Positions 1,252 to 26,480 of a DNA stretch of 34,102 nt are shown here, piece after piece; the first letter of the stretch is position 1; each line of letters starts with the position of its first letter. The notes under the pieces are model-generated. The model saw only the letters and a list, made by a program, of their open reading frames with translations. It was not told where the DNA came from and did no database searches. This stretch comes from Viridothelium virens. Its lineage: Eukaryota > Ascomycota > Dothideomycetes > Trypetheliales > Trypetheliaceae. The position numbers and the translations under genes are program-made. The stretch is taken from assembly GCA_010094025.1 (NCBI GenBank), contig ML991900.1:1-34102 (forward strand), given 5' to 3'.

Positions 1252-3039
1252 TTACAACAGTAGTATTACATCGCCTTGGCTTCTGAAGCACGCTGCAAGG
1301 TCGCGGGTCGTAATATCTCCTACGTCCCTACTTTGCCATACATTCTCCATAATCCTAAGCGCCTTATGTACAGTGCCGAAGACGCTTAGGGGCAGTGGGT
1401 CCACCATTCGGCGCAATTGAGTCTCCTGAGCTGGTTCCGCAAGACAGCCTGCGACGCAAAATGGCCACACCATCGTACGCAGCATTGCCGGCGGCGATAT
1501 CGTACTCAGCAGCTCGATGATTCGATCGACGTTATGACGTACGTCAGCGCTGGCAACCTGCCATCCAGACACAACAACAGATAGGTAAATGAGCGCTGCA
1601 TGAGCCCAGACACGCGTAATCAGGTAGCCCTGGATGGCGGGTATTTCTGATGGCTGGTAGGCAGATGCTGCGACAACATCCAGCAGCCCGCTACTCTCTT
1701 TCGGATCAACTGCGGGTTCGGATTCGGCCTCCAAGCGTCTGAGATGGGCTAAAAGCGGCTCTTTGATAGCCATAGCACGGTGAGCCAGCTCAATGACATC
1801 GAGGCTCCCGGCTACCCTACATCGCTGTTTCCACGCATCAAGCGTAGCTACCTCGCTGATTCCTAGCAAGACTAGATTTTGGACCCCAATAACAGCCTCG
1901 AGATTGATAGGAGATTCGGTACCTTCGCTTCCTTTCAGAAGGCTAAGGTGGTACTCGTAGAGTCTGGGTTGCTCTTGAAGCATTGTGCTGGCAATAATAT
2001 CATCTAATATCACTAAAGCAGAGGAGAAACGAAAGGCAGCTTGTTCAGCAGTTGGAAGCTGGACAGATTGTGTGGACAAGGTCGATGACGACGGGCCTAG
2101 ACGGCTCACGACAGCATTAAAGCGTGTATCGTGCCCTACCGATTGCTCTGTACCAACACTGTCGAGCAGCTGTGTAAAAAGAGCCAGAGCGGCATTGAGG
2201 TGTACCTGCCAGCTATCAAAGCTCAAGACGGCAGTCTCGAATCGTTGCAGCTGCATGATGCTTGCCATGATCCGTACAGCGCCGTGTAGATGTTCTGCAA
2301 TATGTGAGTCACTGATAATCTGCAGTGCTTGCCTCAGTACCCCAAAGGCATCACCGGTTTGTGTGAGTACTTTCTTCCAAGCCGCTTCATCACCAGTCGT
2401 TCCCCACGCGAAAGAAAAATAGAAGCTCTGACAGAGAATGGCTTTCCGTACTAATGGCCTTCTTATCATCATCTCTAAGATCCAGGCTTTGCCGCCTTGG
2501 AGGAGGGGGGGGTGGTAGAAAGGGAACAGGAAAGGAAGCACTTTTTCTAGGTAGAACATCAAGAGGGCAGTGTCAGATCCTTCGAAGACCATGCGTCCGC
2601 ATGCATCCTGGCTTCTATGGATGCCGTGAACTGCGTGTTGGACCCCGAGCCAGGACGTCTCCGGGGGTAGCTCTAACTCATTATTGTGAACCTCTGGAAT
2701 TGCTTTTAAGAGATCACATATCGGAGCTGCCGCACTCCTGAGCGTATTGTTTGGTAATGCTGTCAGTTGGCCAGTTGTAGCTTCGGCATGTGAGATGTAG
2801 TCGCCAGAGACGTTAAACACACGCTCCCCACGTCGGGAATGCGCCCTTTCTTTGACCTCGCGTTTGAGCTGCTGAGCCATCTCTTCTTGCTTCACACTAC
2901 CGTCCATCCACTCCGGTCTATTGTGTTGGTCGTTATGGCATGTGATACCGAGTGCAGTGCACGCATCACATACAGGGTAATTCTCATCGCATTTCTTCCG
3001 CCGAACTCGGCACGTCCAGCAACCATCGGATGTCCTCAT
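1252..3039 (-). CDS. Zn2Cys6 fungal transcription factor
   Basis: A single open frame encodes 595 residues. Residues 7-34 form a binuclear zinc cluster with spacing C-x2-C-x6-C-x6-C-x2-C-x6-C and the basic stretch RVRRKK between the second and third cysteines, the usual DNA-binding module of Gal4-type regulators. The long helical remainder ends with a Trp-Pro-Phe-Cys-Val-Ala-Gly-Cys segment and a C-terminal helix. These resemble the fungal-specific transcription factor domain 2 (PF11951) found in acr-2-like proteins. The start is the first ATG, 6 codons before the first zinc ligand. It lies head-to-head with the small gene at 3637 and converges with the SDR gene. Such factors often sit in secondary-metabolite loci, so a role in regulating neighbours is plausible but inferred. 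Confidence 0.9.
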   Translation of the reverse strand: MRTSDGCWTCRVRRKKCDENYPVCDACTALGITCHNDQHNRPEWMDGSVKQEEMAQQLKREVKERAHSRRGERVFNVSGDYISHAEATTGQLTALPNNTLRSAAAPICDLLKAIPEVHNNELELPPETSWLGVQHAVHGIHRSQDACGRMVFEGSDTALLMFYLEKVLPFLFPFYHPPLLQGGKAWILEMMIRRPLVRKAILCQSFYFSFAWGTTGDEAAWKKVLTQTGDAFGVLRQALQIISDSHIAEHLHGAVRIMASIMQLQRFETAVLSFDSWQVHLNAALALFTQLLDSVGTEQSVGHDTRFNAVVSRLGPSSSTLSTQSVQLPTAEQAAFRFSSALVILDDIIASTMLQEQPRLYEYHLSLLKGSEGTESPINLEAVIGVQNLVLLGISEVATLDAWKQRCRVAGSLDVIELAHRAMAIKEPLLAHLRRLEAESEPAVDPKESSGLLDVVAASAYQPSEIPAIQGYLITRVWAHAALIYLSVVVSGWQVASADVRHNVDRIIELLSTISPPAMLRTMVWPFCVAGCLAEPAQETQLRRMVDPLPLSVFGTVHKALRIMENVWQSRDVGDITTRDLAACFRSQGDVILLL

Positions 3040-3636
3040 TGCGCTGGTCTGATAAGGAGGTTGAAGCCGATTTCAATACATCGCACGACGGATCCGGTCT
3101 CAGAGACAGCCTATTTGTTCTAACTCAAGCGTTGCGCTCGTGGAACGAAACCAAAGAATTGCTGCTGGAGTCCTTGCGAAGGGATGTGCAACAAATACAG
3201 TTGAAAGCGTACTCTAGGACCACGGAATGCTGCGCCACATCATGGAAGGGGAGGCTGACCAGCCTCGCAAGCCCCTGCTGACATAATCTTTACCCTATCG
3301 ATTCAGGCGTCAGAATTACAGAAATTGTCCTAGTAGTTTGCTTCAATTCGTCTCAAGCTGTATAATCGACCTACACGTCAGAGATTTCCCAAAAATAGCA
3401 TCGAAATGGGACAATCACGAAGACACCTGATGAGCGCCTTTCCCTGTGCTGCACCTCTTCTTGTGCGTTTGTACTCTCGTTTGTACTTTCGTTTGTACTT
3501 TCAGCCTCAACCCCTCTCTTGTGTGTTACTTCGTTTCTGTAGATCCTGTGAGTGCTAGAGCACAGCATTGATTCCCTTGAATACCCTCACATTTGTCAGT
3601 ACGCACCAGAGCAGTCGCGATCTTGACTTCAGCGTT
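3040..3636. promoter_or_regulatory. Divergent intergenic region between regulator and small gene
   Basis: This interval separates the start codons of two divergent genes and must contain both promoters. No ATG-initiated ORF of convincing composition is present. It holds a short 12-bp tandem repeat (listed separately) and CT-rich tracts near the right-hand start. No operator can be assigned from sequence alone. Confidence 0.4.
3466..3501 (+). repeat. 12-bp tandem repeat, 3 copies
   Basis: Three consecutive copies of CGTTTGTACTYT are present, the second and third identical and the first differing at one base. It lies about 135 bp upstream of the ATG at 3637, within the divergent promoter. It may be a binding-site array or a simple minisatellite. 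Confidence 0.7.
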
Positions 3637-6116: not shown

Positions 6117-7315
6117 ATGCGAGCCATGGAGTCCAGCTATACAGCAGCATTTATGGATATATCACGAAGTGAGGTTCTCGCTATGGGCATAGTGTTTCCC
6201 ATCATGGATATCTTGGCAGTTGGACTGCGGCTTCACGCAAAACGAGTACGATCAACGTCATACGGAATCGATGACTGGTTGATTGTAGCTTCGTTGATTA
6301 TCGCTTGCGGTTGTGCCTCCCTTCTTATCACAGGTGTTGCAACCGCAGGATTTGGTATGAGGTCTCCCGGCACAACTTCTCTATCTGGGTACGAAGAATC
6401 TGATCCGGTCTTACTCGCTACGAAACGACTTGCTGTTTGTATGAACTGGATGCAATTGTGGACTCTAGGACTTTCGAAGCTCTCGGTGCTCTCCTTCTAC
6501 CGGAGCATTTTCGTGACCAGGACTTTTAGACTTCTCTCTTGGATCATGATATTTATTGTCGTTGCATGGGTCCTTGGTGGCTTCTTCGCTGTTGCTTTCC
6601 AATGCGGACCGCGTATCGAACTATTGTGGTCCTCCGCTAAAAGCACGAAAGCCCATTGCAAGTCTGGTAAAGATGTCGCGTTTGGCTTCTCCATTCCAGA
6701 TGTAATCATAGACCTCTTGATTCTCTGCATGCCGATCTACTGGGTGAGTAACACTTGACATGAGTTTTCATCAAGGTCTAATAACCACAGACCCTAAGTC
6801 TGCAAATGTCGAAGAAGAAGCGAGCAGCCGTTCTAGCAGTCTTTCTCTTCGGTGCCCTGACGGTAATCGCAAGTATCGTGAGGTTAGCATTCTATATCAA
6901 GCTCTATCCGACCATAAAATTGTTTCCGAATCAGCTGGGCGTGCAGACTACTATCGTATATTGGAGCATGTTCGAGATTGGATTGTCGATAATTGCTGCC
7001 TGTCTACCTACTTTCTGGCCTTTGTTCACACGACATTATCCAGAGCGACTTGGTTACTCGCTCAGGAATCTGATGACTAGTATTCGCTCTCGCTCTTCAG
7101 GAGGATCTCGATACTCTCAGCGTCACGCTCACCTCGAAAGCTCATCTGAAACAACCTTTCCACCTAAAGTTGAAGGTAGTGATGGCTATGGTGTAGAGGT
7201 CAATGCTGTGCCAAGAGCTAGGCGACCCAGTATTGATAATGACGGTGGAATTTTTGTTACAACTGGTCTTACTAGGCAAGAATCTGTGCCAAACATTCCC
7301 AAGTCCATGGTATGA
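6117..7315 (+). CDS. Rhodopsin/SAT4-type seven-helix integral membrane protein (2 exons)
   Basis: The gene encodes 383 residues. The intron at 6744-6790 (GTGAGT...CACAG) falls in phase 0. ATGs at 6117 and 6126 are the candidate starts; the frame extends upstream without a better ATG. The protein shows about seven hydrophobic segments. The sequence YGIDDWL after the first loop, the GFGM element, a Cys-Gly-Pro in the extracellular loop and the long polar Ser/Arg-rich cytosolic tail are typical of the fungal rhodopsin domain (SAT4/PTH11-related) membrane family. An N-terminal CFEM domain is absent. The role of these proteins is mostly unknown; some act as receptors, and many lie beside biosynthetic clusters. 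It is co-directional with the UstYa gene 424 bp downstream, so it may belong to that locus. Confidence 0.88.
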
Positions 7316-7624
7316 GTGTGACTACCTGCTGTGGTCTCTGAGGATTGAGACGAGTCTGAGGCTCAGCATGTTCAGCGTCTTCTTTGCAGGAAACAATGTA
7401 ACAGAGGCCACCATGGTTTTAGAAGTACTGGTTTTGTAAGTTTGAGGGTATTGTGTAGCGGTAAATATCGTCAAAAGCTTGTCGAACCATTGCTTGGTAT
7501 ACTTGAAAATTATCGTGTCAGCCTTCAGGAAATGCATGATGACTGCATAAGGCATATACTGCCGTGTGATGGACCCATCAAACAAGACCCGGGGTGACCT
7601 TGTCCAAGTTGTAACGGCAGATCT

Positions 7625-7630
7625 TATAAA
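7625..7630 (+). promoter_or_regulatory. TATA-like box upstream of the UstYa-like gene
   Basis: A TATAAA lies about 110 bp before the ATG at 7739, at a spacing similar to that of the SDR gene promoter. The assignment rests on motif and position only. Confidence 0.35.
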
Positions 7631-7738
7631 GTGCCAAGCTCACTCCTGAAGACGCTCATACCTTCATAGGACTCCAGTTCTCGTTTTGTGCCGGCTCTTT
7701 ACATTGGAAAGCGTCCTCGATATCGTTTCTGACTCATC

Positions 7739-8674
7739 ATGTCCAAGGAGCAATTGCTCGGACGACCGTCATTCTCCCTTTCTGACGGGGACTCCCAGGA
7801 GTATGGTAAATTCAAGCTGCGTACTGAGGGGCGGTATACTGTTTTTAACAGTGTAATTGTACTCATCTTCTCTTTCTGTCTCCTGCTTTCAATCACGGGA
7901 AACATTCTCCTCTTGAAGCATCCAATTTCTCATAGAAATGCCCAAACGTCCAGTCAATGCCCATCTCGCTATAGTAAGTTGCTACATAACTCATCTGAGC
8001 GGTCTCGCTGACCGTCTTCAGGTGGCTTGGGTTTCGATAAGGGGGTAACCTACCACACCCAGACCGACTATTGGGGAGATAACGAGACTCTCGCAGACGA
8101 GTTGTGGGAGAGCATTGACACAGCACCCATGGTCATTGCACTCTCGTATGAAGAGGCCTACAAACGAGGTCTTTCGTGGTCCGTTCCCTGGTTCTGGGAT
8201 GATGACAAGGGTATCTACCTGGTCAAAGCATTTCACTCCATGCACTGCCTCGTGAGCCGCTCTTTCAGTCTCTCTGGAGCTTTTACTGATCGAGATTTGC
8301 AGAAATTACTCCGCAAGGCAATTAGAGACTACGCGTGGAATCGGGATAATCCCGTGCCTCTATTTCACGTAGATCATTGCCTCGACAGCTTACGGCAAGA
8401 TATCAGATGCAAAGCCGACGATACCCCCATGCCCTCTGTCAATGAGGCGCACAAGACTGGTGACGGTCAGATACTGGAATGTCGTGACTGGGATGGTCTC
8501 GTTGCATGGGCACGTCATCCGGACAGGCATTCGTGCTTCGAGCATATTAACGAGTACAAAGATCCAGTGCATAAGTTGGAGCAGTTTGCCTTCTGTCCGA
8601 CGGATCATCCCAGCCATGGTGTGATGACTAGGTACTTTGAGAAGTTTGGTCACAAGGATGCATTTGCCGAATAG
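7739..8674 (+). CDS. UstYa-family (DUF3328) oxidase-like protein (2 exons)
   Basis: The gene encodes 295 residues. An intron at 7974-8021 (GTAAGT...TTCAG) splits codon 79. A single membrane span covers residues about 33-59 after a short polar N-terminus, giving a type II membrane anchor with the rest lumenal. The two family-defining HxxHC motifs are present: HSMHC at residues 150-154 and HVDHC at 194-198, the latter followed by LDSLRQ and then a C-terminal cysteine region. In ustiloxin, phomopsin, asperipin-2a and cyclochlorotine pathways, UstYa-type proteins carry out oxidative cyclisation or hydroxylation of the peptide, probably with a metal bound by the His residues. The repeat-type precursor lies about 1.2 kb downstream on the same strand, so this is a candidate maturase for that peptide. 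All key residues are intact. Confidence 0.92.
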
Positions 8675-9860
8675 TCTAGATCTTGCTGCACAATGAGGCG
8701 CAGATTGTTGGATATTGCGAAGGGCCTTTTAAGATGTATCGGTATAGTATTGGCCAATCACTCACAGCCGTTTGGGGTATGCATGTGATTCTGCGTGTCA
8801 GCAGCACTTTTAGGCAAACGTAGCTAATGAGGCATCAACTTCGAAAGCCCTCTTGCCTTTTCCGCCTAGCATCAGAGCAGCCGATACTTGCCTTCGAGAA
8901 TTTTTGTTGCACTGAGCGGCAGAAGAGATGGGAGCGATTGGGAGAACGTATCCTGTCACACACACCCAGTCCTATAGTTGTTTCGGTGACAACTATGACA
9001 ATTGCAGATAAGGTACAGAGATCGTAGCTGTTGCTCAATCGATTCCGCGTTCGCGGGTCATGTCTGTCTCAGCAATAGAATAGGGGTCCTTATCTGTACA
9101 ATAACAGTCGACGGAGCGGCCCCTACCTTGTCACGGCTCGTCTGTGCTAGCGTGCACTAAAAGCCTCGATTGGAGTATTTTGGAAGGGGGTTGAAGTGAT
9201 GTTGTATTGCGCGGCGTTGTCAATCGAGCTCTGGATTCTATACATAGAGTAACTCTAGCGTTACCGTACCAGAAATTCGTGTCTTTGCTTTTCAAGCGAT
9301 CGACGGCTGGCACGGCCGGGAGCCGGAACCCTGGCCGGGAACGGCTGCGCTACCTCTAAGCTCGTGCCGCACTCAACGCCTCTCCTTACTTTGCTTGTAA
9401 CTCGGCCCTTCAGTTATCATACCTTCCTTGCTTCTCTTATTTGCGCAGTCCTATCACGATCACGATCACGACTAGGCTAAATTCCAGCTCGCTGCATCCT
9501 CCAGCCCACAAGGCAACAGCTCTGCATCCTCCATCCAAGGCACCCGCAATCGCTGCATTTGCCTCAAACATGCCGCATGTGGTGCAGAGGAAGTCTGACC
9601 GACGCGTGTTATTGAGGTCTTCACCGTTCATATAGAGCATGGATTATCACGCATGCGCGGATTTTCTTATTGGTGCCTGCCCAGGGAGTCACTCGACTCC
9701 GTTGAACCATGTAGCCATTTTGGTCGGGGATGCTGGAGGAAGAGAGGCCCCTTGCAAGTACAGTTAAAACTCCTGAGCAACCCATCTGATTCTCCATCAA
9801 AACCACGCAGACTTACTTCTTATTAATTCTGGTCCTACACAACTTCAATCTTGATTCATC
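8675..9860. other. Intergenic region between UstYa-like gene and peptide precursor
   Basis: About 1.2 kb with no convincing ORF. It contains a small TCACGA triplicate at 9454-9471 and two copies of CTGCATCCTCCA near 9490-9530. The right end must carry the precursor promoter, but no clear TATA box was seen there. Confidence 0.5.
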
Positions 9861-10304
9861 ATGCGTTTCACCAGCCAAATCACTCTTGTTCTGGTCGCTG
9901 CTGCAACTACCATCGTGGGAGCTCCCCTTTCCTCCCTTCCCGGTAGCTTAACTGGGCGTGCCCCCCCAAGCCTGGATTCTGAGATCATCGAGGACAGCTC
10001 AAGTAGCTCGAAGCGTGCAGCTCCAAGCCTTGACTTTGAGCTTTCTGAAGATAGCGCCAGTAGCTCCAAGAGGACTGCACCAAGCCTGGACTATGAGATT
10101 TCGGAGGACAGTTCAAGCAGCTCCAAGCGTGCCGCTCCAAACTTGGATTCTGAGATTCACGAGGATAGTGCAAGTAGCTCCAAGCGTGATGCTCTAAATT
10201 TTAACTATGAGATCAACGAAGACAAAGCTAGTAATCTCAAACGGGCTGCTCCAAGTCTTGATAAGGAGATCCATGAAGACAGCGCCAGCAGCTCCAAGCA
10301 GTAA
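9861..10304 (+). CDS. Secreted Kex2-processed repeat protein; candidate RiPP precursor
   Basis: The gene encodes 147 residues with no intron. Residues 1-20 form a signal peptide: a basic start, a hydrophobic core and a cleavage-like VGA-AP. A short leader reaches TGR at residue 33. Exactly six 19-residue repeats follow (34-147), each ending in Lys-Arg except the last, which ends Lys-Gln at the C-terminus. The pattern is (A/T/D)-(A/P)-x-(S/N)-(L/F)-(D/N)-x-E-(I/L)-x-E-D followed by a Ser-rich tail and KR. Position 7 is the most variable: Ser, Phe, Tyr, Ser, Tyr, Lys. This layout is that of Kex2-processed repeat proteins, including dikaritin precursors. The upstream UstYa-like gene and downstream methyltransferase support a RiPP role. 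It lacks the Trp-rich alpha-pheromone motif. The mature product cannot be deduced. Confidence 0.9.
   Translation: MRFTSQITLVLVAAATTIVGAPLSSLPGSLTGRAPPSLDSEIIEDSSSSSKRAAPSLDFELSEDSASSSKRTAPSLDYEISEDSSSSSKRAAPNLDSEIHEDSASSSKRDALNFNYEINEDKASNLKRAAPSLDKEIHEDSASSSKQ
9960..10301 (+). repeat. Six tandem 57-bp coding repeats
   Basis: The precursor repeat region is six consecutive 57-bp units with no gaps, starting at the Ala codon after TGR and ending just before the TAA stop. Units 1-4 and 6 are similar to each other. Unit 5 (10188-10244) is the most divergent in both DNA and protein. The KR codons at the unit ends are conserved in the first five. Confidence 0.93.
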
Positions 10305-10955
10305 GAGCAGATGGCCGTAGATCACTGTATGAGAGTATCCCTCTTCTGAGTAAGCTTATTCGCTGGCTCCTTCTTACCATCATTCGGCATTTTTGATGAA
10401 ATCTAGACTATTACCTCCAGTATTGGGATAAATTCCCGGCAAAGACGAAGGAAACTTGGTCAGTCCTGATACGATGGCTTTGGAGAACGAGCAAGATCAC
10501 ACTCATTTGCCCTCAAGGCGAAGGCGGAGGAAACAACGACGATAAAACTATATGTAGCCCAACGAAAATCTGGGTTAAAAGCCTCTTTAGTAATGCGCAT
10601 CTCAAATGTCTCATGCGAGATTTTTGCCCTCCATAGATCACAAGGCGGCATAGGCATGGCCGGAAGTTCGCACCGAAATTCACTGAGATTGGTTACGAAG
10701 CTTCAGTCTCAGCATAACTCAGAGTTCCCTTATTGAACATGTTAATGCTACAAGCAAAATTATTACCAGAAGGTACAATCAATCAAACAATCGTTCTTTA
10801 GCGCTGTTCCTGCAGCGGAGAGCAACAGTCCAGATAGTACCTTACCTCCCGTCCTTATAGTACCCCTCGATTCACGTGACCCTAGAGTATCCCAGGTATT
10901 TGTTTGAGAGATGCGCTACCGTACTCTAGTCTCTCATTCTTTCTACAAGATAGTC
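10305..10955. other. Intergenic region before methyltransferase gene
   Basis: No supported gene. It holds the presumed terminator of the precursor transcript and the methyltransferase promoter. A CACGTG hexamer (E-box-like) lies at about 10873-10878, roughly 80 bp before the methyltransferase ATG. Confidence 0.4.
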
Positions 10956-12086
10956 ATGGCGCTTTCTATTGAGCAAACCGCAGAAGAAGGCTATCACAAT
11001 GCTTTGGCCTACGAGAAGTACCGACCATCATATCCGTCAGAGACAATCAACCTTCTTACGGAGCTACTACACAAGAAGAGCGAAAGTCACTATCGAATCG
11101 TGGACTTAGCTGCGGGGACTGGAAAGTTTACTGAGCTTCTCGCGATGCCGCTTGCAGGCCGGCAGATCATAGCTGTCGAGCCACATCCACAAATGCGACA
11201 AATTTTAGCGAGTAAGGAACTTGAGGGAGTATGTACGACTGATGGAACAGCTGCTCAGATGAAGGATGTAGCGACAGGATGGGCCGATGCCGTGGTGGTC
11301 GCTCAGGTACGGATCTATGCGCTATTAGCCCCGAGAAACTTCTAATTTCGAATGGACTTTCTCCTAATGACTCACGCCTGCCAGGCCTTTCACTGGTAAG
11401 TTAGCAAGAATATGTAGCCGGTTAACGGAAGTCCGCCATGACTAGGTATAGTCGGTAATAGTTGGAAGGTTTGCAAACCTAGAGTCTTTAAGAGAGATTC
11501 GCCGTGTCCTATGCGCAGACGGAGTTCTATTCCTTTTATGGAACCAAGAAGACTGTGCGTATTGGAATTTCAAAGTCATTCAATTATTCCACGGCTCCGT
11601 AATGCTGATCGTAGATATCTAAGTCAACTCACCGACTGACTGGCAGCCCGCGACAAAGTGGGAAACGCAAGTCAGAGATCTGGCATGGAGCTTGGATGAC
11701 AAGGTACACAGCTTTCGGAGGCCAAGATGGATGGCTGTGTTTGGGGAGCACCAGGAGACTGGGGAGATTATCGATAGCCCAAAGCAAGACCTGTTTGCCG
11801 TACCACTTCAGAGAAGAGCTGTGATGAAGACAGAATGGTTGGAGAAGATGACAATATGGGCGCGCTTCAGCACGTTGAGCTTTGTTGCCACTTTGGGAGA
11901 AGATGAGTTGCAGGTAAGACAGGCATCTTGATTCCTACATTGATCGAGTGAGATGCTAAAGCGACGGACTAGAATGCGAAGCGAAGGGTGGAAGAAATCC
12001 TCGAAGGTGAAGATGTAGAGTTGAATGACAAGGACGAGGTAGCAGTTCATATTTCCACTCAAATGGTATGGACCACTGCATTGTGA
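10956..12086 (+). CDS. Class I SAM-dependent methyltransferase (5 exons)
   Basis: The gene encodes about 282 residues. Exons are 10956-11306, 11385-11395, 11469-11574, 11647-11913 and 11973-12086. The reading is continuous and matches the fungal type-11 methyltransferase layout. It has FxYxxYRPSYP-like start residues 20-27, SAM motif I VDLAAGTGKFT at 48-58, the acidic post-I residue in VEPHPQM, and AQAFHWF joined across two introns. It then has the ExRRVL-x2-G-x4-LWN segment, and ends after a Val-Trp-Thr. An upstream in-frame ATG at 10911 exists, but 10956 has the better context. The third intron uses a weak GTCATT donor; that choice is required to keep the family pattern. UstM and PhomM methylate RiPPs in related clusters, so it may methylate the neighbouring peptide. 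That role is an inference. Confidence 0.82.
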
Positions 12087-14207: not shown

Positions 14208-14760
14208 GGCGTTCGGGTGCTGCCTTAAAACCCTCAAATCTCTGTCCTACCTTCACCATCTCTTCGACCGGCGTTCGGGTGCTGCCATGAAACCCAGATC
14301 TCTCATCCCCTCTCCTTCCGACCGGCGTTCGGGTGTTGCCATAAAACCCAGATCTCCCATCTTCTCACGGCTTGCTCCCATTGACAATACTGGCGAGGTA
14401 CCTTTCGAGGGCTCCATCACCGCCAAAATTCCTCTTCGACCGGCGCTCAGGGTGATGCCAGAAAGCCCTCCTCTTCCCAAAACGCGGCATGGTACCGCTC
14501 TTACAGCCAACATCGGCGAGGTTCCTTTTGAGGGCTACATCACCGCCAAAACTCCTCTCCGACAGGCGCGCAGGGTGATGCCACGAAACCCTTCTCTCCC
14601 CAAATCGCGGCTTGCTTCCGCTGACAATACTGGCGAGGTACCCGGCAGGGTCTCCATCACCGTCAAAACTCCCTCTTCAAAATTCCTCCGACCGCTGCAC
14701 AGGGTGACAGCAAAAGACCCTCCTCTCAGTGCCCAGCGATGGGACACTTTCGCGACGAAT
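14208..14760. repeat. Nested degenerate tandem repeat (minisatellite)
   Basis: A motif close to CGACCGGCGTTCGGGTGNTG followed by CCATRAAACCC recurs about six times (near 14208, 14270, 14324, 14442, 14562 and 14695). The first three copies are 54-62 bp apart. The later ones lie inside longer units of 117-123 bp that also contain GGCGAGGTACC at 14392, 14515 and 14632. Both strands stay largely open: the plus frame 14113-14775 is uninterrupted, and the minus frame is interrupted by one TAG at 14535-14537. Neither has an ATG in a convincing place. I call it a repeat array, not a gene. Confidence 0.75.
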
Positions 14761-16630: not shown

Positions 16631-17228
16631 GAATCTCTAAACAAGCGATACGTCACTCCTTTACCTAGGAGAAACTTTATCCAGAAACTCCTAAGTAGTT
16701 TCCATTCCTGACCTGCGCATCTATAAGACTGGGTAACTCATTTGGGAGCGCCTCGTCAGGGTGTCTCAGCCTCGCGTGCCGACCCGCTAAGAGCGTGCAC
16801 TGGACAAAGCAGTATTTCTTTTGCCCAAGCATCCTCTTCTTACCCCCGCAAAAATGTCTCGGCACTCTTCCGGGGGGCTATGGTCTGGTCGAGCCTTATC
16901 ATGTTCGAGGTCATTTGAGACAAGCGGCCTCTGTAACGAAGGCCGGAGCGGGAATATTGTGGGCACAAGGCAGAATTCTTGGCTACCCACCATATTTGCA
17001 AGCCTGTAATGGGTATCCCGACAAGCCCACAATCTGCCTGGTCGATTACGGTTCCGAGTAACTACTGGGGGGTCTTAGGCATCGCACGGGGGTGACTTTT
17101 CTTGTGAACTGACAACTTCCTTGTGGACTTACAGCTTCCTTGTAAACTGACAGCTTCCTTCGACCAACACCTCAATCATTCAAAATCACTCATAGTCGCT
17201 AACCGCATGACATTTTGAATATTTTCTA
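16631..17228. other. Upstream region of the G-alpha-like gene
   Basis: No supported gene; frames at 16677-17061 lack convincing starts and domains. The right end, including the 19-bp tandem repeat, is the presumed promoter and leader of the gene starting at 17229. Confidence 0.4.
17101..17157 (+). repeat. 19-bp tandem repeat, 3 copies
   Basis: Three head-to-tail copies of CTTGTRRACTKACARCTTC are followed by a short partial copy. The array ends about 70 bp before the ATG at 17229, so it lies in the likely promoter or 5' leader of the Helo/G-alpha fusion gene. Confidence 0.8.
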
Positions 17229-19311
17229 ATGGACCCAATCACGATAGTCGGTCTTATAGGCTCTGTGGTTGGTACTGCTGATGTGGTGACTAGGAGCATA
17301 AAGCGACTGAGCCGGCTCAAAACTAAGTTCCGAGATGCACCTCTTCTCTTGCTAATTTTAATTGGTCAGCTCTGTGCGATCCAAACAGCACTAGACGAAC
17401 TGTCTGCTTGGTCGCATAAAGACCTTTCGAGAGATCGAAGATATCAGAAGCTTGCAGTACAGGTCGGCAGCTCCCTTGAGTGTTTTCGTCCCTTGATATT
17501 CTCACTCCAAAGACGACTCGATCAATTCGAAGGTGACGAGAGAGATCAAATCAGTTTGGGTAGACGAGTGGTATTTCTGTGGAATGAGAGTGAGTTAGCT
17601 GAATACTTCACTCTCCTGGATCTGATGATGAAATTGGGTGGTGAAAGCTTGTAGATTAAGCTATGGAGGTGAGAACCTTATATACATGTACACTAGTGGA
17701 TCACGTGATAGGATTGCCTGTGCTCATACATCATCAGGATCATCAAGTCAACGCACTTGCACTTCTGCTACAAGCAATTCAATGGTGATTTGTCCTTCCT
17801 TTCAAAATGCTCTTCACTAAATTTCGAACAGCAAGACATTGATTGAGCAAGAAAAGGTAATTGTTAACGAAGAAAGTCAATCGGTACTTCAACATGCAAA
17901 GGAATGCTCGTCATCCCTGATTAGCCTGGTGAACGTGCCCGGAGTTGAAACCAATAGCATTCTATCGGAAGATACCCACGCTCTTAGCACAGCTTTTGAG
18001 TTTGACTCTGTCTTAATGGCTACGCCTATCTACGAAACAGCTCGCAGATCCCATGTGCGGCGGCTAGTACATTTAGAAAGGGCCTTAGCAAAAGCTTTTA
18101 AGCAACGCCGAGTCGACGGGCATGCACTCTCTCGAGATGAGTCTTCCCAGCTTATCAAGGGCGAACTTGAGTCTGGGACTTTATCTTGCCCCGCAAAGAA
18201 AAGTACGGTCCAATTTGCCAATAGAAATCGCTCGTGGTGGAAGCTTTCTATTCCTCGACCCGCTAGTACTATGAGGACAGGCTTGCTGCATGATACAGTG
18301 TCCGAGGATGCGGCGGAAGCGAAGATTCTCAAGGTGCTCATGTTGGGCGCGGGCGCAAGTGGCAAAAGTACCTTACTCAAGGGGTTGAGATTATTGAGCA
18401 GTGAACACGCTTTCAGCACTCGAGAGCGTCTGCAATGGAGAGAAATTATACTTTACAGTGTGGCCATGGATCTTCGCGACATTATTGGGGAAATGGAAGA
18501 GCTTGGTATTACCTTGGGGGATGGCCACAACGAGCAACATAAGCAGACCGTCTTTTCGCTCCGGGACGACGTTGAAGATTTTCTTGATCATCTTCACCCC
18601 CCAATTCTAAGGCTCGCATGTGCTGTAAAGTCTTTATGGCTTGATCCAGAAGTGCAGAGCTGTTGGCGAAAGTTGGACTATCAGCATGGTAATTTTCGAT
18701 ATTTTTTGAAGAATCTACATCGGTTGGGCGACCTTGAATACATACCCAGTCATGAGGATATTCTGAGATCTCGTTTAAAGACAACTGGGATCTCAGAAAC
18801 ACGACTAAAGTTCAGTCCAGCTGAGGTCAGACTTTTCGACGTAGCAGGAGTGCGATCCGAGAGAAAGCTATGGGGACGTGTTTTTGACAACGTGTCTACA
18901 TTGATATTTGTGGTTGACGCAACTGGGTACAAGAAATGCCTTCTTGAAGATCGAAACGGCAACCATATAAGAGAATCGCTTATGCTCTTTGGATCTCTTG
19001 TCAAAAGCAAATACTTTCGGGAGACATTTATCTTATTGCTATTCACTCGAGCAGACGAAATCCACGAAGAACTAGAACAAACTTCGGTTCTTGACTACTT
19101 TGCAGACTGCCCTGCTGATAGCGATGGTCACACCAGTGTGACAGCCTATTGGCAGTGGCTGGAAAACCGTTTCCTCGCTCTGGTACCAGAGAAGGACCTG
19201 AGCGATAAACGTATTAAGATTTGCAAAACATCTCTTGTGGATCCGAGCGCAATAGGCGCTCAACAAGTTTTTAGGATTCTTACAGATTGGTTCTTCCCTA
19301 ACACGGACTAA
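17229..19311 (+). CDS. Helo-like N-terminal domain fused to divergent G-protein alpha domain (3 exons in the proposed model)
   Basis: The proposed exons are 17229-17637, 17697-17784 and 17832-19311, giving about 658 residues. Residues 1-130 start MDPITIVGLIGSVVG and match the helical Helo-like N-terminal domain of fungal STAND proteins. From about residue 330 a G-alpha-like GTPase follows. Its P-loop reads GAGASGKST (usual GAGESGKST). Switch I reads RSRLKTTGISET and is well kept. Switch II reads FDVAGVRSERKLW (usual DVGGQRSERKKW), so the GTPase-stimulating Gln is Val. The NKxD motif is replaced by TRAD. The last intron, 17785-17831, restores the conserved LLLQAIQC reading. A MITE at 17623-17736 interrupts the conserved LLD-HQVNAL stretch. 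The intron 17638-17696 inside it would bypass the stop at 17652-17654. Without that splice the gene is broken. Function is unknown; a signalling or incompatibility-type sensor is conceivable. Confidence 0.75.
17623..17736 (-). mobile_element. 114-bp MITE inserted in coding sequence, copy A
   Basis: The insert is flanked by GGATC at 17618-17622 and 17737-17741, a perfect 5-bp duplication, and has TGATGATG/CATCATCA ends. Removing it with one GGATC restores CTCCTGGATCATCAAG, which reads the conserved Leu-Leu-Asp-His-Gln. It is inverted relative to copies B and C. A 38-bp stretch (17631-17668) is the exact reverse complement of a segment of copy C. The insert carries its own GT and AG sites, which may let it be partly spliced out. 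Confidence 0.9.
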
Positions 19312-22877: not shown

Positions 22878-23578
22878 AGAGGGAATGTCAAAAATCAGAC
22901 CATATATTATTCGGGTAGCTAGAGCTAATACATAAATAAGACCGGTACCGCAATCCTGTTAACGCTGCTACATCTGCTTTGCATTCTCCTTCCAATTCCA
23001 TAGTCGCCTTATTGTAATTCGCGAGGTCTGCATCATAAACCCGTTGATGAGCCGAGTGCTGCTTGCTGCTGAATGAAGGTCATTAAATAGCAATAAATGT
23101 CAAGTGAGAGCTGCGAGACATCAAGGGCGGAGAGAGAGATTAAAGAGCTGTGAAGAGGAATTGAGTATCTCTACATAGACCTCTCATCTCTACATGAGCC
23201 TCACCTTTTTATAAAATTAAGATAATATCTTATTGATAATTTTAGAGGTGGGGGTGGTGTGGAACTGTGGATCTATGAGGTTTAAGCGAGTGAATCGGAA
23301 TCCATTGGACGGTTTGATCTGATTCGGCCGGATCGTATTGAACCAAATCGGACGCATCACTGGAGGCCCTGGGGCCCGGGGTGGGGTGCGGTGTGTGCCT
23401 ACTGCCCAGCCATTTCTAATGCCAGTGCGCCCTTGTCAATGCGTGCTCACAAGGCAGACTTCTGTCTCAGCCTTGAGGATGGCGCATATAAGGGGCTGTG
23501 TTGCTCGTCTTCAGTGTCCCACATCTGCTGAATTTTTTCCTTCCGCTGTCTCGCTTCTACGTTTATTGTTTGCAGATT
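22878..23578. other. Intergenic region with a local GC-rich patch
   Basis: No supported gene. A GC-rich stretch at about 23330-23480 contrasts with AT-rich surroundings. Words such as GATCTGATTCGGCCGGATC recur imperfectly near 23300-23350. It may be a fragment of an old repeat; I could not identify it. Confidence 0.35.
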
Positions 23579-26480
23579 ATAGCTGAGATACTCGGTGTTG
23601 TAAGTGGCGCCCTTTCTGTCGCAGGTTTTGCGGGCCAACTGGCACAAAGCGCATCCTTTCTTTACGACTTTATCAAAGATATAAGAGGCGCGCCAAAATC
23701 AGTGCAGGCTTTAGACAATAAGCTTCGTATTCTTGAATCAATTCTTGTGGAGATTCAGAGATCATGCCTTGATCATAATTCAGACCTTGAGGAGCCTCTT
23801 CGGCATTGCCAAAGACTCGTGCAAAAAGCTCTTAGACTTTGTGAAAAAGGTCGACCCCAAACAGTATGCGACACGGAAACGAAGGGTGTGGGGTCAATTT
23901 AAAGTGGTGTTGAAGCGTTCTAACTTAAATAAATATCATGAAGAGTTGAAACGCTCCCAGTCAATGCTTCTTCAGGTTTGTAGCAATCTTATACGGTATG
24001 TTCAGAGTTCTTTGAAATATAGCAGGTCTGCCTCGTCTTCATTCACAGGTGTTCGTGCGGTTATCAGAGAGTCTGACATTAGACAGATCTGAACAAAAAG
24101 TTCATACAAATGATTTGAAACTTATTGTTCAACAAACGGGAGACTTGTTCACTGAGCATAAACGCAACACGACATCCATTGAAGCAATACAGCATACAGT
24201 TGCAGAGATACGAGATAACTCATCGATCTTGCATTCAACTGCTGGACGAGCTGTTACTATCACAAATGAGACTTATTCAAAGACTAATGAGGCACACTCG
24301 AAAATCGAACAGATAAACCGGAACACAGAGCAGCTTCGGGAAATAAACGCAAGGTTAGAGGCAACCCAGCAAAGTTTGGTAAACGAAACGACAGCACTTC
24401 AGTGGAGCGAATTCGCATCTTTCAAGGAAGAAATACACCGCACGATTTCTAAGAGTCTGAAACACCACCTCTCAGAACATTTCGGACAGCCGAGCGCAGA
24501 CAAAATACGACCACATCCCGGTGATAGCAAGATTGTACAAAATTAAGCCACTGGGGTTACAGCAAGAATCCCAGAGCTCCAATACTCTTACTTAGGAGAC
24601 GAAGATAAACTACATTTCCAGTCTCGACCTGAGAAGCTTGTCAACAACTGGATCAAAAAGTTTTCGACCGAGAGTCAGCGGATTCTGATTCGAAATGATA
24701 TTCTTGGCACTATATCTATTCGGACCACAACTACAGCATATGTTCGTAACCTCACAGAAGGCTATTCAGAGTCAAAACAAGTCACTCAGAACACCGTCAT
24801 GGTCCTACCTGCCCAATGGCTGAGATTTGGGGGTGTCGTCCTCGAACGTCACAAATCAGTGCTCTCAAGTTTTACTTGTAGCCAAGGCATTCCACGCTGG
24901 ACCCTGAGCCCAGTCAATGTTATTGACGAAAAAAGTGAGATTATTACAGCTTGTTTAACTCATGATTTTGGCACTATCCGCAGACTGTTTGAGGAGAGGA
25001 GCGCATCTCCTTATGATGTTGATTCCACTGGGCGGAATCTCCTTGGCTTTATCGCTGTTGGATTACAGGTACGCGGACTTCCTAGTCCTAACAGCTTATT
25101 CTTACAATGTCAGTAGTTCCAAATTTACAAAGGAAAGCACGAAACTATTCAGATGCGACTTGATGAAGTAGAAGCAATCATTGCGATGATGATTGACTAC
25201 GGTGTTGATTCAGGTTGCATGAACCTGCATGACAGGTAAGGTGCAACTTAGATGCGTACCTTCATACAATCTCAATGCCCGCTAATTTACTCATCAGTAA
25301 TTCCGTTTACCTCTCTGCCCAGTGCTGGTCCGAGACATGTTTGGAAGTACCAGTGAATGCTTCCCTGGAAGAGCACGGCAATTTTCTTGTTCGAAAGCTA
25401 CTAAGATCCGCCAAAACGGACCCTTTCTCCACAACTGATGCCTATGTACGTATCGGCCCGGAAGGGGGTCATGAAGTTGTCGACTTTCCGGGAATGGTTA
25501 GGGGATTTCCGCCTGAACCAATGACAAAACTTCAGTTGGACGTCTTCATGACCCAGAATGAATGGCAACTAGTCTGGTCTTCATGGCAACTAAATGAGCT
25601 GAGTAGTGTGAGATCGTTAGAACCTCTCGATAGGGAATCGGATGTTCGAAGCTATGTGGCCTTTTGGGTGACCAGCGATGCTGAAATTATCAGAAAGCTG
25701 CTAGACTCAAAATTGGATCTCCTTGGAGCATTCTTGAATCTGAATTTACTTCATCTGGAGCCGGCAGCTGATCATTCCGTCATCGACGCTCTGAATGTCG
25801 CCATTCACCAAGGAGGAGAGGTCATCGCGTTATTAACGGAACATTCGTACTATTCTCATGAACGAGAGCCGTGGATACGCCATCGTTTCAAGAAACTGGT
25901 CCTTATAGAATGTTGGCTTACTAAAGTATTCCAACTACTAATCACACACGGGGTTACCTATATGGCGGACTCAGATGTTGTAAATGAATTATGTCAACAT
26001 GCTCGAAAGCACAATGCAAGAACGCTCTACGCATGGACAAAGGCACTAGGACTATGTGCCAAGGAGAATTCTCCTCTCCCTGGATCTCGACTGAACAACT
26101 TTGTCTCTACAGATGACAGTGTTGCTACTGGAAGCGTTACCACGGAAGTACTAGAAATAGACGATGATTGGGAGACCGAAGATACAGATGTTGAGGAGTC
26201 GGGATGGGAGACTGAGGAGGAGCATGAAGAGGGATATATGCTTGAGATAGCGATAGAAAAAAAGGAGGATGATGCAAGAAACCCGAACCTTAGGGACAAG
26301 GACCGCCACACATGCTGTAAAGCTCTGGAGGACTATGACGAAGGTTATTGGAGCCATGTATACCCTCGTATTATGAGATCAAAAATGGACAGTGGCGCGA
26401 AGAAGCATGAAGAAAGCACACTTCGGAAGCTTACCAGACATGTACGAGACTTGATGGCTGTACCTCTGTTAGGCGGCTAG
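23579..26480 (+). pseudogene. Helo/NACHT-type N-terminal domain protein, degenerate pseudogene
   Basis: The N-terminal segment reads AEILGVVSGALSVAGFAGQL, the hallmark start of fungal STAND/NACHT N-terminal helical domains, but the expected ATG is ATA at 23579. A one-base insertion near 23823-23828 shifts the frame from LVQK to LLDFVKKVDPKQYATRKRR. A 73-nt intron (23976-24048) leads to a coiled-coil part with repeated KIEQINRNTEQL-like segments. A TAA at 24544-24546 interrupts this frame, which then continues. Introns at 25069-25116 and 25236-25297 join the last exon, which encodes an acidic region and a basic C-terminus. A poorly conserved ankyrin-like middle is possible. The intact protein would have had about 870 residues. 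The three lesions imply loss of function, unless some are sequencing errors. Confidence 0.75.

Follow-up and report, generated by a model that had tools for sequence, protein, structure and literature searches.

The Viridothelium virens locus

The stretch of DNA analysed here (the window) is the entire contig ML991900.1, 34,102 bases long and designated C130 below, in the assembly of the ascomycete Viridothelium virens, a Dothideomycete of the family Trypetheliaceae (GCA_010094025.1; 30.7 Mb in 175 contigs), which we take to be a lichen-forming species. Within positions 6117-12086 it carries four genes, all on the + strand and with frames that are open across GT-AG introns, encoding a SAT4/Pth11-like membrane protein, a UstYa-type protein of the DUF3328 family, a secreted precursor with Kex2-type repeats, and a methyltransferase. 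An earlier sequence-only reading had taken these four co-directional genes for a new fungal cluster of the dikaritin type, specifying a ribosomally synthesized and post-translationally modified peptide (RiPP), and their common direction and coordinates hold in the spliced, open models. These models are predictions from the letters alone, as follows.

6117..7315, + strand (exons 6117-6743, 6791-7315): Fung_rhodopsin (SAT4 / Pth11-like) membrane protein, 383 amino acids; Pfam PF20684, splice model
7739..8674, + strand (exons 7739-7973, 8022-8251, 8303-8674): UstYa/DUF3328 protein, 278 amino acids; Pfam PF11807 (E 1.1e-25), motifs, splice model
9861..10304, + strand: Kex2-repeat precursor, predicted to be secreted, 147 amino acids, no intron; translation, signal peptide at about residues 1-21, no Pfam match
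10956..12086, + strand (exons 10956-11306, 11385-11395, 11469-11598, 11647-11913, 11973-12086): S-adenosylmethionine (SAM)-dependent methyltransferase, 290 amino acids; Methyltransf_11 (E 3.6e-11), splice model

The second gene encodes the DUF3328 protein with both HxxHC motifs that had been claimed. Besides its PF11807 match it has a single N-terminal membrane segment by hydropathy, and it reads HSMHC at residue 150 and HVDHC at residue 177; in an alignment of the window protein with nine relatives, each motif keeps its two H and its C without exception. With 1,186 bases between this gene and that of the precursor, the locus has the arrangement by which dikaritin or ust-RiPS clusters are recognized, a DUF3328 protein with two HxxHC motifs near a precursor. 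The nearest external UstYa proteins are two at 63% and 78% in the alignment, followed by those of Lobaria immixta and Bathelium mastoideum, presumably both lichen fungi, and of Aspergillus and Penicillium species.

Structure and constraint of the repeat precursor

The precursor begins with a predicted signal segment (hydrophobic residues 7-21, with small residues ahead of P22, judged from hydropathy only), after which it is made up of six units of 19 residues each, all read from the translation.

9960..10016, + strand: repeat unit 1, variable residue S, preceded by a single R, ends KR
10017..10073, + strand: repeat unit 2, variable residue F, ends KR
10074..10130, + strand: repeat unit 3, variable residue Y (LDYEIS), ends KR
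10131..10187, + strand: repeat unit 4, variable residue S, ends KR
10188..10244, + strand: repeat unit 5, the most diverged, variable residue Y (FNYEIN), ends KR
10245..10301, + strand: repeat unit 6, variable residue K, ends KQ before the stop codon

The sequence-only reading had described six KR-ended repeats; the number of units stands, and the description of their ends does not, since KR closes five units, the sixth ends in KQ, and unit 1 follows a single R rather than KR. Kex2-processed repeat proteins (KEPs) have been defined as having at least three tandem repeats of at least 8 amino acids between Kex2 sites, none above 100 amino acids (PMC7329392), and the precursor agrees with this definition in its six 19-residue units and five KR sites, as it does, by hydropathy only, in having a signal peptide.

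The scaffold P-S-L-D-x-E-I-x-E-D is common to most of the units, and the one residue at which they vary is S, F, Y, S, Y and K in turn. The Ile/Leu is kept in all six units and Tyr is present in two, while three have no aromatic residue at the core position. Every unit starts with an X-A or X-P dipeptide (AP, AA, TA, AA, DA, AA), five of these standing after KR, and such STE13-type dipeptides have been tied to alpha-pheromone-type peptides (PMC6339444, PMC7329392). The MF_alpha-type pheromone sequence also carries WxW (PMC7329392), and Trp, the residue expected of an ascomycete alpha-type pheromone, is absent from the whole precursor. The computed [M+H]+ values for two predicted unit peptides are 1602.665 for PSLDYEISEDSSSSS and 1570.675 for PSLDFELSEDSASSS.

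The differences between units are mostly silent, with a nonsynonymous to synonymous ratio per site of 0.26 (all pairs, uncorrected). Site by site the ratio is 0 at the E-D pair, 0.12 at E-[I/L] and 0.18 at K-R; position 7, the variable residue, stands out at 4.6, a value that reflects very few changes at a site chosen after looking. The repeat units are under purifying constraint except at this one variable residue. We considered a structural or cell-wall repeat protein and rejected it on the ground that constraint falls on the KR sites and the ED pair, among others, an argument made from the precursor itself and without comparison against such proteins.

Searches for relatives of the precursor are weak tests, the query being short and of low complexity. 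Unmasked, it gave no homologue at E <= 0.001 among the 8,000 candidates sharing most words that were scored, and with its Ser runs masked as X it gave none at E <= 10 among 353 candidates; within its own genome it matched itself only. A literature text search with six hexapeptides cut from the units returned two papers, neither of them related to judge by its title. As far as these searches extend, then, the peptides look new in sequence, and the earlier claim that the repeat is unlike known core peptides survives to the same extent.

Upstream of the precursor, positions 9304-9340 contain several overlapping CGG/CCG pairs, which are possible zinc-cluster binding sites. Comparison of the four upstream regions found no 8-mer common to all four, and three 7-mers that are.

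Precursors and UstYa genes elsewhere in the genome

A PF11807 search of the genome gave 49 rows that merge, within 10 kb, into 29 UstYa loci, and we read the surroundings of 17 of these including the window, over uneven spans (about 4.5 kb to 20 kb, and 34 kb for the window). A dibasic-repeat scan of these stretches recovered seven open reading frames (ORFs), one of them antisense to another, leaving six precursors at six of the 17 loci: the window and contigs C47, C1, C36, C18 and C65. The other five resemble the window's precursor in having a signal-like start that ends before AP or VP (located upstream, not necessarily in the same exon), KR-separated units and a UstYa gene nearby, and they differ from it in their distinct unit sequences.

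The six precursors fall within 265,055 bases, or 0.86% of the genome. When these bases were dinucleotide-shuffled five times, the repeat scan gave 0 matches, and 10 stretches around unlinked rhodopsin genes contained no repeat precursor, a sample (13,710 bases) smaller than that around the UstYa genes. Ascomycetes have been reported to average 5.25 Kex2-repeat precursors per strain, and DUF3328 neighbours were found for 22% of 7,878 such precursors, a pairing enriched across fungi (PMC7329392). Because six precursors lie in 0.86% of the genome as against the published 5.25 per strain, the clustering of precursors and UstYa genes in V. virens is far from chance, noting that our detector differs from that of PMC7329392. 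The pairing of precursor and UstYa-type oxidase that had been claimed for the window is thus borne out both by the published enrichment and by its recurrence at five of the 16 other sampled UstYa loci.

Pth11-like genes near UstYa loci

The first of the four genes had been called a SAT4-type membrane protein, and it matches PF20684 over the full profile length (1-237; E 2.6e-45, 155.3 bits). Kyte-Doolittle analysis gives six hydrophobic segments, with a seventh perhaps below threshold. PF20684 has been assigned to the class XIV Pth11-like G-protein-coupled receptors (GPCRs) in a 2026 review, which describes fungal GPCRs as mostly orphan (PMC13308352).

We examined how often genes of this family lie near UstYa loci. 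The genome gave 158 PF20684 matches, of which the best 150 were used (150 of 224 candidates scored) and merged into 129 genes; the control families were p450 (92 of 197 candidates scored, the thinnest control; entered as 90 merged genes), Zn_clus (150 of 166; 112 rows) and HET (113 of 113; 98 rows), and MFS_1 was unusable, with 9 of 392 scored. All of the resulting distance counts are lower bounds, as they come from the best candidates. A PF20684 gene lies within 3 kb at 10 of the 29 UstYa loci, where uniform placement predicts 1.0, and at nine of 28 when the window is left out; the counts rise to 11/29 within 5 kb (expected 1.5) and 12/29 within 10 kb (expected 2.6). The p450 family is found at 0/29 loci within 3 kb (expected 0.7) and 3/29 within 5 kb (expected 1.0), and Zn_clus and HET each at 0/29 and 1/29, the Zn_clus case being the window's own. 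Set against the three pooled controls within 3 kb, the PF20684 genes give 10/129 versus 0/300 (p 4.7e-6), where the figure of ten counts loci and the 300 controls are partly merged genes and partly rows.

The association extends to some of the precursor loci and to relatives of the window's UstYa protein. PF20684 genes lie within 5 kb at the window and C65, and at about 5.3 kb at C36, and a further gene of this type near the C47 UstYa gene was found only with the window protein as query; there is none within 10 kb at C1 and C18 among the matches listed. The closest UstYa paralogues in the genome are those on C46, C68, C35, C145 and C41, and three of these (C46, C35, C145) have a PF20684 gene within 5 kb. 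A rhodopsin tree was made from exon pieces of 10 UstYa-linked genes (9 loci, with C36 included at about 5.3 kb) and 10 unlinked ones, all hits of the window protein and omitting C65, C3 and the UstYa-linked C8 gene; it is poorly resolved, and because the linked genes do not form one clade it does not show a single inherited cassette.

No prior report of a UstYa-PF20684 link turned up in a literature search of combined SAT4/UstYa, UstYa/GPCR and DUF3328/GPCR mentions, which was partly inspected. A PTH11-type GPCR gene is listed in a Trichoderma RiPP cluster (PMC7099791).

The methyltransferase and other genes of the contig

The fourth gene is the SAM methyltransferase that had been described, as its Methyltransf_11 match confirms. 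We found no paralogue of it at another UstYa locus, the only clear one being C9:52240-53227, on a contig whose UstYa genes lie about 220 kb away from it. Its membership of the cluster is supported by adjacency and is uncertain. The grouping of all four genes put forward by the sequence-only reading accordingly divides: placing the membrane protein with the cluster is supported by the enrichment of PF20684 genes near UstYa loci relative to controls, and for the methyltransferase the grouping has no support beyond adjacency.

A transcription factor gene lies to the left of the four:

1252..3042, - strand: Zn2Cys6 transcription factor; Fungal_trans_2 (E 1.4e-49), Zn_clus (E 2.3e-07)

About 3.1 kb separate it from the PF20684 gene and about 4.7 kb from the start of the UstYa gene; it is possibly a regulator of the cluster. 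To the right, a + strand frame at 17821-19308 matches a G-protein alpha subunit (E 5e-70) from residue 162, and an ORF ahead of it (17211-17651) looks by eye like fungal STAND-type N-terminal domains and has no Pfam match. At 23492-26477 a frame whose N-terminal domain is of the PigL_N type (E 9.6e-07) precedes frames lacking Pfam matches, perhaps a STAND-like or decayed gene, and tandem repeats of 54 and 123 bases occupy 14208-14622.

Comparison with known peptide systems

The ustiloxin and phomopsin precursors have the motif EDYxI (PMC6339444), with a YxIx core in which Tyr is nearly invariant (precursor type G-10; PMC7329392), and a tyrosinase is required in both pathways (PMC7329392). The V. 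virens locus shares with them the signal peptide, the KR-separated units and the UstYa partner, and its units 3 and 5, which have D-Y-E-I and N-Y-E-I at this place, line up with D-Y-x-I. It differs in that the place of Tyr is taken by S, F, Y, S, Y and K in turn, with Glu fixed at the next position, so that the Ile/Leu is constant while the Tyr site varies; in that the contig has no tyrosinase match; and in that no sequence relative of the precursor was found. The claim of a dikaritin core like that of ustiloxin and phomopsin therefore holds for the pairing of precursor and UstYa, lacks support for the methyltransferase, and does not hold for the ustiloxin/phomopsin type: because Tyr is present in only two of six units and the contig gives no tyrosinase match, filing the locus under that type goes too far, and we rate that membership as less likely than before. 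Elsewhere in the genome, on C9, a tyrosinase match and a UstYa gene are about 4 kb apart; there, positions 274247-285828 contain two PF20684 genes, two UstYa genes and the tyrosinase within 12 kb; the stretch read there contains no Kex2-repeat ORF.

Victorin, a UstYa-type RiPP, likewise comes from a Dothideomycete (PMC12048977). The cross-link joins Y to I in ustiloxin and phomopsin and F to L in victorin (PMC9233826), and the Phe-Leu pair of victorin occurs in unit 2 of V. virens. Several such clusters in one genome are not unusual, as Venturia inaequalis has nine clusters of DUF3328 and repeat-precursor genes (PMC9632046); this species differs in being a plant pathogen, and the accessible part of that source makes no mention of a PF20684 link. 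The V. virens cluster is of a kind already described as widespread, with several per genome, and its unusual features are a residue that varies where Tyr would be expected and an association with receptor-like genes.

Interpretation and alternatives

The explanation that we favour, and consider probable, is that the locus is a compact Kex2-repeat/UstYa cluster of the RiPP type that yields modified peptides. Judging from the families present, the precursor would enter the secretory pathway, be cut at KR by Kex2 and have its basic ends stripped by Kex1-type trimming, and a STE13-type dipeptidase could take off the X-A or X-P dipeptide at the unit starts; the product would be several acidic peptides, each about 15-17 residues long, at least some of which UstYa would oxidise or cross-link. 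The residue pairs of ustiloxin and victorin are available in the Y and F units, with the constant Ile/Leu as the other candidate site, such that a cross-link of the ustiloxin or victorin type could form where Y stands with I or F with L, and could not where the residue is S or K. The cluster would therefore be expected either to use more than one chemistry or to release some peptides modified and others linear. For the Pth11-like protein the likeliest role is that of a sensor or regulator connected with the product, which is a guess from association, and the methyltransferase may or may not take part.

Several observations weigh against this explanation. Tyr is found in two of six units and its position is the least constrained site; the tyrosinase search gave no match on C130, on the understanding that the window is the whole contig and the cluster may be split by the assembly; no Kex2-repeat ORF was seen at 11 of the 17 sampled UstYa loci; and 19 of the 29 UstYa loci have no PF20684 gene within 3 kb. 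Counted per gene within 5 kb, the comparison of PF20684 with p450 alone (12/129 versus 3/90, p 0.11) is not significant. UstYa proteins, moreover, also work in non-RiPP pathways, including polyketide and nonribosomal peptide clusters (PMC12048977).

It is less likely, and by no means negligible, that the units are released as linear, unmodified peptides of a pheromone or hormone type, with UstYa acting elsewhere or on a minority of units. The X-A or X-P start of all six units, the STE13 signature of alpha-pheromone-type precursors (PMC6339444, PMC7329392), speaks for such peptides, as do the three units with no aromatic residue at the core position. The units are duplicates, however, so that the dipeptide does not amount to six independent observations; the adjacency of precursor and UstYa recurs in the V. 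virens genome, and pheromone-annotated precursors lack DUF3328 neighbours with three exceptions (PMC7329392).

We think it unlikely that the UstYa protein, the PF20684 protein and the methyltransferase serve some other small-molecule pathway and that the precursor is a chance neighbour. This would fit the occurrence of UstYa in polyketide and nonribosomal peptide clusters (PMC12048977) and the 11 sampled loci with no precursor, but no synthase domain was found among the 18 proteins and frames of the window that were scanned (a subset of its frames), and six precursors in 0.86% of the genome, set beside 5.25 per ascomycete strain (PMC7329392), are hard to reconcile with chance. A decaying cluster whose precursor is losing its Tyr cores and last KR, as Tyr in two of six units, the KQ end of the last unit and the divergence of the fifth might suggest, is very improbable given that the four genes are open with normal splice sites and the repeats are under purifying constraint.

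The favoured cluster of modified peptides can be extended to a more speculative form, which we regard as doubtful: that these are peptide-receptor cassettes, in which several UstYa-matured Kex2-repeat peptides would be signals, the Pth11-like receptor encoded next to each would be the sensor for that peptide, and the variation at one residue would form a specificity code. Sensing of STE13-type Kex2-repeat peptides by GPCRs has already been suggested in general terms (PMC6339444), and the new part of the idea would be the involvement of Pth11-like genes beside UstYa.

Implications

A 2025 survey of lichen fungi reports no repeated precursor regions in its two RiPP clans (PMC12048977); in contrast, six Kex2-repeat precursors can be read beside UstYa genes in the genome of this one lichen-forming species. 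The cluster type itself is already known, and the receptor linkage is the novel lead. If the association of UstYa and Pth11-like genes holds in other fungi, it would offer a route to the ligands of receptors that are mostly orphan (PMC13308352), and the cassettes, if they exist as such, would yield ligand candidates for a large fungal class of orphan GPCRs.

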